From assembly GCA_030614915.1 (NCBI GenBank), contig JAUXAG010000003.1, forward strand, positions 1 through 64,000: a stretch of DNA of 64,000 nucleotides. Direction: 5' to 3'. Position numbers and translations under genes: made by a program. Numbering within the stretch: position 1 is the stretch's first letter; the number at the start of each line of letters is the position of its first letter. This DNA is from Actinomycetes bacterium (GTDB lineage Bacteria; Planctomycetota; Phycisphaerae; JAACET01). Below the pieces are notes generated by a model. The model saw only the letters and a program-made list of their open reading frames with translations. It did not search any database and was not told the DNA's origin. Below are positions 19,978 through 27,136 of this stretch, piece after piece.

Positions 19978-20607
19978 ATGGCCCAAGAGCCCCTGACCAT
20001 CGAAGACATAATCCTCCCCGCCGACTGTCTCGACGGCCCAATCGACTGGCCCCGGCTCTTCGGCAACGACAACGGCGTCGAAGTCGAAATAGGCACCGGC
20101 AAAGGGACCTTTCTGATAAACGCAGCCCGGGCCAACCCTCGGATCAACTACCTGGGCATCGAATGGGCCAACAAATACTACAAGTACGCCGCCGACCGTG
20201 CCCGCCGTTGGGATTTGGCCAACATTCGTATGATCCGCTGCGATGCCAAGGATTTTATCGCCCGCCACACACCACCCCAAAGCGTTCAAACCCTGCACAT
20301 ATATTTCCCCGACCCCTGGCCCAAGAAACGCCATCACAAGCGCCGACTGTTCGACAGCAACTTTGTAGCCGCTGCCGTCAAAGCCCTCGTACCCGACGGC
20401 CAACTCCACGTAGTCACCGACCACAAGGAATACTTTGATATCATCGAGCCCTTATTGGCTGGCTGCGTTCAACTCCAGCTCAGCGATTTCAAACCCTGCG
20501 ATACCGCTGGGCTCGGCGAATGGGTGGGAACAAACTTCGAACGCAAGTACCTAGCTCAGGGCCGAACCATCTACAGTTGCACCGCCCGGAAGATCACCGG
20601 CCCTTAG
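19978..20607 (+). CDS. trmB: tRNA (guanine-N7-)-methyltransferase
   Basis: Makes m7G46 in tRNA from S-adenosylmethionine. 209 residues. EIGTGKGTF at about 38-46 is the SAM-binding loop, LGIEWANKYY follows, and PDPWPKKRHHKRRL is the TrmB signature. Its 3' end overlaps the 3' end of the convergent deoxyhypusine-synthase homologue by 14 bases. Confidence 0.95.
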   Translation: MAQEPLTIEDIILPADCLDGPIDWPRLFGNDNGVEVEIGTGKGTFLINAARANPRINYLGIEWANKYYKYAADRARRWDLANIRMIRCDAKDFIARHTPPQSVQTLHIYFPDPWPKKRHHKRRLFDSNFVAAAVKALVPDGQLHVVTDHKEYFDIIEPLLAGCVQLQLSDFKPCDTAGLGEWVGTNFERKYLAQGRTIYSCTARKITGP

Positions 20608-21757
20608 CGCCCGTCTGCCCCCTGATCTTCTCTACATCTTTGAGCAATTCCGGATTCGACTTGGTCGCGGCGCTCAATTCGCTAACCAGTTCGTCCAACT
20701 GGCTGTAAAGTCTTCGATGTTTTCGCGGCTCATTCGCCGCCAGCACATATTGACACAGAATCGGAAAAGTAATCGACGCGCAGGAATAGACCACCACGTT
20801 GTTGATATTGGCGTCCTTGATCTTTCCCCAGCTCTTGGCCTCCTGCGGTGTGGCACCGGACAGCCCGCCCCACTGCGGCGAATCAGTGGTCAGTTGAATG
20901 AAATAGTCGTGGCCACCTTTGCTGTGGTCACGAAGTATTTGGGCCAGGGTGGGCTGGGTCTGCAGATAGAAATTCTTGGGCGAGCCCCCGCCGGCCACCA
21001 CCACAGCGTTTTTCTTGGCCCGGCGCACGATGGCCGTCGTCTCAATAACATCCCGCACAGGATCGATAATAATCGGCTCATTGAAAAGATGCTCAACGAT
21101 CAGGTTCATGGCAATCGAACTGTCCCCCGGCGCACTGGTATAGACGGGCACATCGTACTTAGCCGCCGCGGCCAACAGCGATTTCTCCGGCGCCGCTGCT
21201 TTAGACCCAATCGAATCGCCCAGAGCCTTGTGCAGCTTGGCACTACTGATCGGCTTGTTCGTCGGCAAATCCTTCACCGCCTGGTGAATAATAGTATCCG
21301 TAGCCTGCAGTGTAGCTGAATCCTCGATGAAGGTATCGTAAATACGGGCGATGTCCATCTGGGCCAGGGCATTGTCGTCGGCCTGAAAGTGTCCCTGGAA
21401 CATCGGGCAATTGAAGGGCCGATGCATGTCGTGATAAAGATTCGCCCCCGTGGAGATGATAAAATCAACGAAACCATTCTCAATTAGGGAAATGATCGGC
21501 CCGGACATCCCGATTGGCGTCATTGCCCCGGCTAAGGTCAGAGCGATCGTGGCCCCTTCGTCGATCATTCTCGAATACAGCCGGCAAGCCTCTGCCAACC
21601 GCCGAGCATTGAACCCCGACCCCGCAAAAACCTTATCCACGAATTCACGGACCTGTTCGTAACCGACTAGCTCCATCGGTTCTATCATCTTGCCGGAAAC
21701 TTTACCCTTATCTTCCGGCTGAACGGATGGAATACTATCACGGCTCGATTCACTCAA
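20594..21757 (-). CDS. Deoxyhypusine-synthase-family protein (bacterial SpeY/homospermidine synthase type)
   Basis: 387 residues. NAD-binding-type blocks TLAGAMTPIGMSG (74-86), STGANLYHD, DSSIAMNLI, AGGGSPKNF with K261 at the position of the catalytic lysine, and EAKSWGKI near 335 all follow eukaryotic/archaeal deoxyhypusine synthase. Bacteria have no eIF5A, and bacterial homologues are thought to move aminobutyl groups between polyamines, for example to make homospermidine. Immediately downstream of the pyruvoyl arginine decarboxylase, which supports a polyamine role. TTG start with GGAAG; an internal ATG at 21688 is an alternative. Confidence 0.87.
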   Translation of the reverse strand: MSESSRDSIPSVQPEDKGKVSGKMIEPMELVGYEQVREFVDKVFAGSGFNARRLAEACRLYSRMIDEGATIALTLAGAMTPIGMSGPIISLIENGFVDFIISTGANLYHDMHRPFNCPMFQGHFQADDNALAQMDIARIYDTFIEDSATLQATDTIIHQAVKDLPTNKPISSAKLHKALGDSIGSKAAAPEKSLLAAAAKYDVPVYTSAPGDSSIAMNLIVEHLFNEPIIIDPVRDVIETTAIVRRAKKNAVVVAGGGSPKNFYLQTQPTLAQILRDHSKGGHDYFIQLTTDSPQWGGLSGATPQEAKSWGKIKDANINNVVVYSCASITFPILCQYVLAANEPRKHRRLYSQLDELVSELSAATKSNPELLKDVEKIRGQTGAKGR

Positions 21758-21778
21758 TTAGCTTCTTCCATTGTTTGC

Positions 21779-22321
21779 TTAGGGCACGAAAACTACCGCC
21801 ACCACCACCGTCGTCCACATCCCGTTCTTCCCGCCCGTAGCCGTCTGCACCATCGCCCGCGTCCGCACGATCTTGCCGCTCATCCGATAGATTTCCTTCC
21901 GCTCGTCGTAGCCGGTCTCCGGATCGAAGCGGATACCCAGGGTACTGGCCAGCATCGACGCCGCCATATCCTCCACATAGTCCGCCCCCTCCTTAGCCGT
22001 CATCCCGTAGCAATGGTGTTCGGAAATATACCCGTACGAATCCCCCTTGGCCGGCACCGCCAAACCCACCCCCGAGAATATAAGCCGCCCCTTTTCGTTG
22101 GTACTGCCATCGGTCAACACCGCGTGAACCACCTCACCTGCTTTTAGCTTGGCCACCCCCTTGGCCCGCGAGATGATCTTGCAATTCGGCGGATAGATGC
22201 TCGAAACCCGTACCAGGTTATACTGGGCGATCCCCGCCTGACGAAGGGCCCACTCGAAAGACTGCAGACGCTCCTTGTGTCTGCCCACTCCCCTGGTGAA
22301 AAACGCCTCCCGTGGTACCAT
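21779..22321 (-). CDS. Pyruvoyl-dependent arginine decarboxylase
   Basis: 180 residues. The self-cleavage site is in RVSSIYPPNC, with cleavage expected between S40 and S41 to leave an N-terminal pyruvoyl group on the larger chain. GEVVHAVLTDG and the SEHHCYGM segment are family blocks. It converts arginine to agmatine, the entry to polyamine synthesis. The ATG at 22321 has AGGAG 11 bases before it; the frame opens at 22423. The deoxyhypusine-synthase homologue starts 21 bases downstream, so the pair is a polyamine operon. Confidence 0.9.
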   Translation of the reverse strand: MVPREAFFTRGVGRHKERLQSFEWALRQAGIAQYNLVRVSSIYPPNCKIISRAKGVAKLKAGEVVHAVLTDGSTNEKGRLIFSGVGLAVPAKGDSYGYISEHHCYGMTAKEGADYVEDMAASMLASTLGIRFDPETGYDERKEIYRMSGKIVRTRAMVQTATGGKNGMWTTVVVAVVFVP

Positions 22322-25639: not shown

Positions 25640-27136
25640 TCATTTGATTTTCTCCGACTTCCACCAGGTGTTCCAGCGATTCGCATCGGTTCCGAAATCT
25701 TTTTTCGTAATGCGTTGAAGCGCTTCGGCGATGACTTCACGCATAGGCGACCATTGTTCTCTTTGCAGTTTTGTGATTAATGGCTCAACAGCGCGTCGGT
25801 GACCGATTGCACCCAGGGCTTTTGGGATCTGCCAATCATCATTAGTTCTCATTTCACGAATAAGCATTGGAACGGCATCTTCACCAATATCAATGATCTC
25901 ATTCATTGCCTTGAAGCGTGGTTCGTGAGGGTCAGACAACTTGGCAATAAGCTCTAATACCCTTTTATCCGTAGGCGATTTAAGCTCGCTTGAGCCTGGG
26001 TCTTTGGAAACGACAGTTGGATGTTCATTCGGAAATGGTCGATAAGCCGGATCGCCAATCAATACAACACGAGCAAGACTTTGGATTCCTCCGGGATTCC
26101 TATCTTCTCCAAGGGCTTGCGGTGATCGCTTACCGTTTTTAAAAGGAAGTATGTCTATCTTTTTGATTCCGGCGGCACGAATCTTGTCATTGGTGCTCAT
26201 TTGAAGGGCCTCGCCCAAAGACAAATTCTTATCAAAGAAATAAGAGATGGTAAAACCAACATTTGGCCAAGAACTGCTCGCCGTAGAGGCGAATTGGCCT
26301 ATGGCTCCCGCTTTGATGAAATTCAAACACACGCTCTTTTTTGGTTGGATTCTTGTTGTGGCAATAGTCCAATTATAATCCGTACTATCGTGGCGAATAT
26401 GTGTCACAGCGGAATGACAAGTACCATTAACGACGACCGCTGATTTCAGTTCGATGCCGCCAATTTTATCGCCCGAAATATTACATGACCGATCGCCCAT
26501 TCCATGTCCAGCCAGGAAGACGAGAGATGCGTTGGCGAGTTTTTTAATCTCGCGATCAGCTTTTCGACGCCATTCAGGAGAATCATCTTTTGGGTTGATC
26601 GTTTCAGTTTCATATCCGTACGATTTATAAATTTTCGCATTTTGCAGAGCAAAAGGATAAAGATCGTTTTGAGCAAACGTATGAGCGATGGCTACGAATT
26701 TCTTATTAACATAATCATCACTTGCTTCTGCTCTTGCAGTGGAAAGCACCAGTTTGACAGCGTCATCGGATGTCATTCCAGTGATATAGCCGAAAGCGCA
26801 ATCCAAGTATGGATCGCCATCCAGCATCGTCAATCCTTCGAAAACCTTTCCGACAAAATTGTCTTCTATTAATTCAGGGCGCACAACGAGAGCAACATAC
26901 TTCGGGCTGATAACCTTTAATTCTTCGAATACTTCATCAAGTGTTCGATTATTAAGATTAATGATTTTTACAGGTTTTCTTAACTTGGTCAGTTCATTAA
27001 CAGCTTCAATATATGAATCTCGGCCATCAACCTTAGCATCGGTTATGATGACATATTTGGACTGATCAATCGCATATAAAGAACTTGTGAAAAAAATTAG
27101 CACAAAGAACCATGGTATGATGTATTTCATGGTCAT
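25640..27136 (-). CDS. Secreted caspase-like (clan CD) protein with a repeat-type C-terminus
   Basis: 498 residues with a signal peptide (residues 1-22, ending SSLYA). The layout of the middle part, with LVFLAGHGMGD (H211) and VVVNGTCHSA (C240) at strand ends, looks like the His/Cys dyad of the caspase/gingipain clan (C25 or C13-like). GDPAY near 370 is a common gingipain-type block. After about residue 395 the sequence turns helical (DEVIPM..., ALGAIGHRRAVEPLITKL) like HEAT repeats. Function unknown; a secreted protease is the best guess. AT-richer than its neighbours. Confidence 0.65.
   Translation of the reverse strand: MTMKYIIPWFFVLIFFTSSLYAIDQSKYVIITDAKVDGRDSYIEAVNELTKLRKPVKIINLNNRTLDEVFEELKVISPKYVALVVRPELIEDNFVGKVFEGLTMLDGDPYLDCAFGYITGMTSDDAVKLVLSTARAEASDDYVNKKFVAIAHTFAQNDLYPFALQNAKIYKSYGYETETINPKDDSPEWRRKADREIKKLANASLVFLAGHGMGDRSCNISGDKIGGIELKSAVVVNGTCHSAVTHIRHDSTDYNWTIATTRIQPKKSVCLNFIKAGAIGQFASTASSSWPNVGFTISYFFDKNLSLGEALQMSTNDKIRAAGIKKIDILPFKNGKRSPQALGEDRNPGGIQSLARVVLIGDPAYRPFPNEHPTVVSKDPGSSELKSPTDKRVLELIAKLSDPHEPRFKAMNEIIDIGEDAVPMLIREMRTNDDWQIPKALGAIGHRRAVEPLITKLQREQWSPMREVIAEALQRITKKDFGTDANRWNTWWKSEKIK

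Follow-up and report, generated by a model that had tools for sequence, protein, structure and literature searches.

A pyruvoyl-type arginine decarboxylase paired with a SpeY-like deoxyhypusine synthase homologue points to an arginine-to-homospermidine route in a member of the Phycisphaerae

Results

We analysed a 64,000-nucleotide stretch of DNA (positions 1 to 64,000 of contig JAUXAG010000003.1, assembly GCA_030614915.1; hereafter the window) from a bacterium recorded under Actinomycetes and placed by GTDB in the class Phycisphaerae of the Planctomycetota. It carries a gene for a pyruvoyl-dependent arginine decarboxylase (PvlArgDC) and, next to it, a gene for a homologue of deoxyhypusine synthase (DHS) that resembles the homospermidine synthase SpeY. 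Together with an unlinked agmatinase, the pair is likely to make homospermidine from arginine by way of agmatine and putrescine. This reading draws on the identities of the genes, their key residues, the fold of the DHS homologue, the conservation of the operon, the agmatinase and the failure of family searches to find another triamine route in the genome; the activities of the enzymes, the substrate of the SpeY-type protein and its product would follow from these. The two genes are both genuine neighbours on the minus strand, pvlArgDC first and the DHS homologue downstream:

21779..22321, minus strand: pvlArgDC, pyruvoyl-dependent arginine decarboxylase, 180 amino acids, ATG start with AGGAG 5' of it (PF01862, 186 bits; TIGR00286, 116 bits)
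22199..22204, minus strand: codons of Ser40-Ser41, predicted self-cleavage site forming the pyruvoyl group (RVSSIYPP, aligned with RISSIMPP/RISAIMPP of the Methanocaldococcus jannaschii chains)
20594..21757, minus strand: speY-type DHS homologue, predicted homospermidine synthase, 387 amino acids from TTG 21757 or 364 from ATG 21688 (PF01916, 266 bits; NF001980, 413 bits; tree; AlphaFold model)
20822..20824, minus strand: codon of the predicted imine-forming lysine in a WGK motif (EAKSWGK), K312 counted from the TTG or K289 from the ATG, aligned with human K329 (alignments)
20975..20977, minus strand: codon of K261 (387-residue numbering) in a GGGSPK motif, aligned with human K287 (alignments)

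The coordinates and identities that a preliminary description had given to the two open reading frames hold, with Pfam scores of 266 bits for the DS family (cut-off 27) and 186 bits for PvlArgDC (cut-off 22.7). The spacing of 21 bases stated there stands if the DHS homologue is translated from TTG 21757, which is preceded by a GGAAG motif, and becomes 90 bases with ATG 21688 as the start. The TTG start is plausible because the homologues in relatives also continue upstream of the position matching the ATG.

The pairing of pvlArgDC with the DHS homologue is not a matter of chance, because it is seen again, with homologues of the same clade (clade A, see below), in genomes of the class, eight of them with the window's own. 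Across 61 genomes (60 relatives and that of the window), there were 10 instances of a PvlArgDC gene within 3 kb of a DHS homologue and pointing the same way, and 20 of one so placed relative to an agmatinase gene. Five relatives from the class (G008, G017, G022, G026 and G030) have the order pvlArgDC-speY-speB as one operon. A sixth, G010, has the order PvlArgDC-SpeB-DHS, with a DHS homologue of clade B; G054 has PvlArgDC and SpeB with only a fragment of the DHS homologue, and all three genes are present on a contig named as Phycisphaerae (L097).

PvlArgDC passes the cut-off of TIGR00286 (116 against 107 bits) and stays below that of NF009064 (172 against 207). Both Ser40-Ser41 and the conserved glutamate, E101, are present, and the Ser-Ser cleavage pair is retained in 27 of 30 relatives. 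Separately, we noted three homologues (L059, L060 and L061, from G046, G053 and G060) in which the cleavage site lacks its second serine (VSGI) and the conserved Glu is replaced by Arg; they are probably no longer arginine decarboxylases. Their genomes have a CdmS-type DHS homologue, named after the caldomycin synthase of Thermus thermophilus, and no agmatinase match.

The DHS homologue scored best with NF001980, 'homospermidine biosynthesis protein', at 413 bits, below the cut-off of 450. It was further from the CdmS model (NF002699, 183 against 500) and from the DHS equivalog models (TIGR00321, 203 against 304; PRK00805, 263 against 434). DHS homologues of the class fall into four clades, of which A is the window's type and D is divergent. 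Clade B is over the NF001980 cut-off (528 bits for the member tested), and the true CdmS-type proteins form a clade of their own (586 on the CdmS model for the member tested). In the tree, made by a quick method and with long branches elsewhere, clades A and B were joined with an SH-aLRT support of 97, clade A alone had 98, and the CdmS clade stood apart. Identity to the window protein is 58-91% inside clade A and about 42% to clade B. From the model scores and the joining of A with B, the protein is, by sequence, SpeY-like and a member of a sister clade, not a certified member of NF001980; it groups with SpeY and not with CdmS or archaeal DHS. The equivalents of human D243 and D316 were considered as specificity markers and rejected: the Asp is kept, and a Leu is common to the SpeY-type and CdmS-type clades alike.

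A scan of genome contigs gave eight loci with a DHS homologue, all of clade A. Contigs from the two genomes of the window's genus (L094 and L095) are titled Actinomycetes or Actinomycetota; the nearest relatives of their DHS homologues come from Sumerlaeota and Planctomycetota, and the record names look doubtful. Reference sequences from Thermus and Anabaena were not found in the plasmid collection, where the only matches were CdmS-type proteins from cyanobacteria and Sphingomonas, and DHS from haloarchaea.

The preliminary description took K261 for the catalytic lysine. This residue aligns with human K287, in a column that is nearly invariant among the aligned homologues; by alignment, the imine-forming role belongs instead to the WGK lysine, K312/K289, which is intact and does not vary among the 27 homologues aligned. 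The catalytic core is retained, and the loss of catalytic residues that would have spoken against the preliminary reading was not seen. The AlphaFold model (pLDDT 86, pTM 0.88) had TM-scores of 0.70-0.85 against solved DHS structures.

As the preliminary description had noted, the window holds no gene for the step from agmatine to putrescine. The only arginase/agmatinase-family gene of the genome (95.8% complete; the absences given here rest on family searches) lies on another contig (G000:C1:90079-90882) and is an agmatinase (TIGR01230, 233 bits against a cut-off of 174). No family match in the genome was found for agmatine deiminase, AdoMet (S-adenosylmethionine) decarboxylase or an OKR-type decarboxylase. 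Three single matches, named by reading their sequences, looked like something else: the Orn/Arg-decarboxylase-fold reading frame like diaminopimelate decarboxylase, the CASDH/HSS-domain protein like a ThiF/MoeB-type protein, and the spermidine-synthase domain (L092, G000:C29:99780-100229) like part of a membrane/TPR protein of more than 1000 amino acids, which is unlikely to make spermidine. The spermidine synthase or carboxyspermidine genes suggested as worth looking for therefore did not turn up beyond these domains, and family searches of the genome found no alternative triamine route.

Around the pair, trmB lies downstream of the DHS homologue in convergent orientation and overlaps its end, no polyamine transporter gene adjoins, and an Rfam search of the window gave no match. 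In another genome of the genus (G002), a Peptidase_C25 gene (L116:5156-6670) is inserted between pvlArgDC and the DHS homologue, and the window has a weaker Peptidase_C25 match at 25640-27136, 3-5 kb from the pair. Two contigs of metagenome-assembled genomes titled Pseudomonadota and Desulfobacteraceae (L098 and L099) carry near-identical clade-A DHS genes with no PvlArgDC; these adjoin open reading frames that look like carbamoyltransferase and carbamate-kinase types, a neighbourhood that could possibly, by the look of its genes, represent a different putrescine route.

Discussion

With the pair and the single agmatinase, the predicted route from arginine to homospermidine is gene-complete, and family searches found no other triamine route. 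In this pathway PvlArgDC would cleave itself at Ser40-Ser41 and then decarboxylate arginine to agmatine, and the agmatinase encoded on the other contig would take urea off agmatine, giving putrescine. The SpeY-type enzyme, using NAD+ and its WGK lysine and passing through an enzyme-imine intermediate as in DHS, would then take a 4-aminobutyl group off one putrescine and attach it to a second. The resulting sym-homospermidine would probably be the cell's main triamine. A path from agmatine or putrescine to a homospermidine-like product had been suggested in the preliminary description; it is well supported by the SpeY and CdmS scores, the agmatinase and the three-gene operons. The suggestion was incomplete in that the agmatinase gene sits on another contig, and it was not new, such pathways having been published before.

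Several observations weigh against this pathway. The agmatinase is unlinked to the pair in the window's genus and did not turn up in the 83% complete genome G001, and no PvlArgDC match was found in three genomes with a clade-A homologue (G013, G044 and G058). Moreover, because the SpeY-type protein falls under the NCBI equivalog cut-off, homology does not determine its substrate.

The nearest alternatives are the chemistry of CdmS and a proposal for Haloferax, in which DHS transfers agmatine and agmatinase acts next (PMC5178350). If the former applied, the DHS homologue would couple two agmatines to caldomycin, and the agmatinase would then trim the product to homospermidine. Such coupling is established in T. 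thermophilus (PMC10981699), the gene adjoins that of an agmatine-making enzyme, and the Leu at the position of human D316 is common to CdmS and the window protein. It is nevertheless disfavoured, and we think it improbable, given the scores with the two models and the separate clade formed by the CdmS-type proteins of the class. The probable counterpart of CdmS Ser67, which binds the guanidyl group, is Ala in the window protein and in clade B; this putative site, an inferred assignment, reads AGA in the window protein and AGS in most of the CdmS-model proteins aligned. Clade-A genes, furthermore, often adjoin a ureohydrolase gene, whereas 15 of the 20 genomes with a CdmS-type protein (families f5 and f6 and G052) had no arginase/agmatinase-family match, and the end product in those genomes may therefore be caldomycin itself or the product of another hydrolase. 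A plant-like homospermidine synthase, which uses spermidine and putrescine (PMC10981699), might alternatively act on imported spermidine, leaving the decarboxylase to acid resistance or agmatine export. We regard this as very unlikely, since no spermidine-making genes were found in the genome, the pair has no adjoining polyamine transporter, and the operon with agmatinase in relatives suggests that putrescine is made de novo.

The fold and catalytic lysine of the window protein are those of DHS, and a DHS and an agmatinase of Haloferax have been proposed to modify aIF5A (PMC5178350), so deoxyhypusination of EF-P, the bacterial relative of eIF5A, also has to be weighed. The single EFP_N match of the genome (L102:1120-1758, minus strand) has Asn at its tip (KGNKRS) and not Lys, which makes hypusination unlikely from the sequence and the whole alternative, in our estimate, hardly credible. 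Among 58 genomes with an EF-P match (loci L125-L182), the tip is Asn in 36 of the 40 with a DHS homologue, the four exceptions all being of family f4 and clade D, and Lys in 16 of the 18 without one; family f6, G052 and G059 have a loop with no lysine at all (TPGNLRA). Since genomes with the homologue mostly have no tip lysine, EF-P was rejected as its substrate.

The same survey suggests, tentatively and with considerable doubt, a mutual constraint between DHS-like polyamine enzymes and EF-P within the class, presence of the homologue going with a tip Asn (GN[WKL]R) and absence with Lys. The switch between Asn and Lys occurs within families f10, f11, f15 and f18. On an EF-P tree built with the loop columns left out, 3-4 phylogenetically independent pairs differing in both traits were concordant and none discordant (p ~0.125), too few for significance. 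The DHS homologue might act off target on a tip lysine or, alternatively, a ribosome rich in homospermidine might need no modified EF-P; both explanations are possible. Either, if true, would amount to a novel inverse relation linking the hypusine-type enzyme family to bacterial EF-P. Should a larger set of genomes confirm the pattern, it would also be relevant to the absence of EF-P hypusination from bacteria that carry DHS homologues.

The proposed pathway accounts for polyamine synthesis in a little-studied bacterial lineage, and adds to the pyridoxal phosphate enzymes and SpeDA a third and unrelated type of arginine decarboxylase that has been recruited beside SpeY. It is also useful for annotation, as such genes are often labelled deoxyhypusine synthase though the bacterium has no hypusinated factor.

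Each part of the module has known counterparts. PvlArgDC shares its family, the Ser-Ser processing site and the conserved Glu with the enzyme of M. jannaschii (1n2m, 2qqd); it differs in being bacterial, and in sequence it matches the solved chains weakly, at about 30 bits. The DHS homologue shares its fold and catalytic lysine motif with bacterial SpeY (NF001980/PRK00770; for example, of Anabaena and Ca. Pelagibacter), whose gene is likewise clustered with putrescine-making genes, but belongs to its own sister clade. CdmS, also a DHS homologue, starts from agmatine and, together with a ureohydrolase, yields homospermidine, but lies in a clade separate from that of the window protein. SpeY as a homospermidine synthase, and speY-speB clusters with a different arginine decarboxylase, have been published (PMC10407285, PMC9992855), and sym-homospermidine is reportedly the sole major polyamine of Gimesia maris and occurs in several other planctomycetes (PMC4334474). 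In the open literature, as covered by titles and selected passages, we found no description of PvlArgDC and SpeY as a cluster. A close parallel is SpeDA, an arginine decarboxylase derived from AdoMet decarboxylase, which adjoins SpeY in G. maris and is clustered with SpeY and agmatinase (PMC10407285). Such speDA-speY-speB clusters, known also from Marinimicrobia, Capsulimonas and others, follow the same logic of a pyruvoyl arginine decarboxylase and SpeY, with agmatinase or a deiminase/amidohydrolase. Whereas their decarboxylase comes from the AdoMet decarboxylase family, of which no gene was found in the genome studied here, that of the window is the unrelated archaeal-type PvlArgDC (PF01862). 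The module is a sound and ordinary metabolic one. Since clusters of this kind that use other arginine decarboxylases have been published, it is a modest variant, new in its decarboxylase, of a known pathway from arginine to homospermidine.
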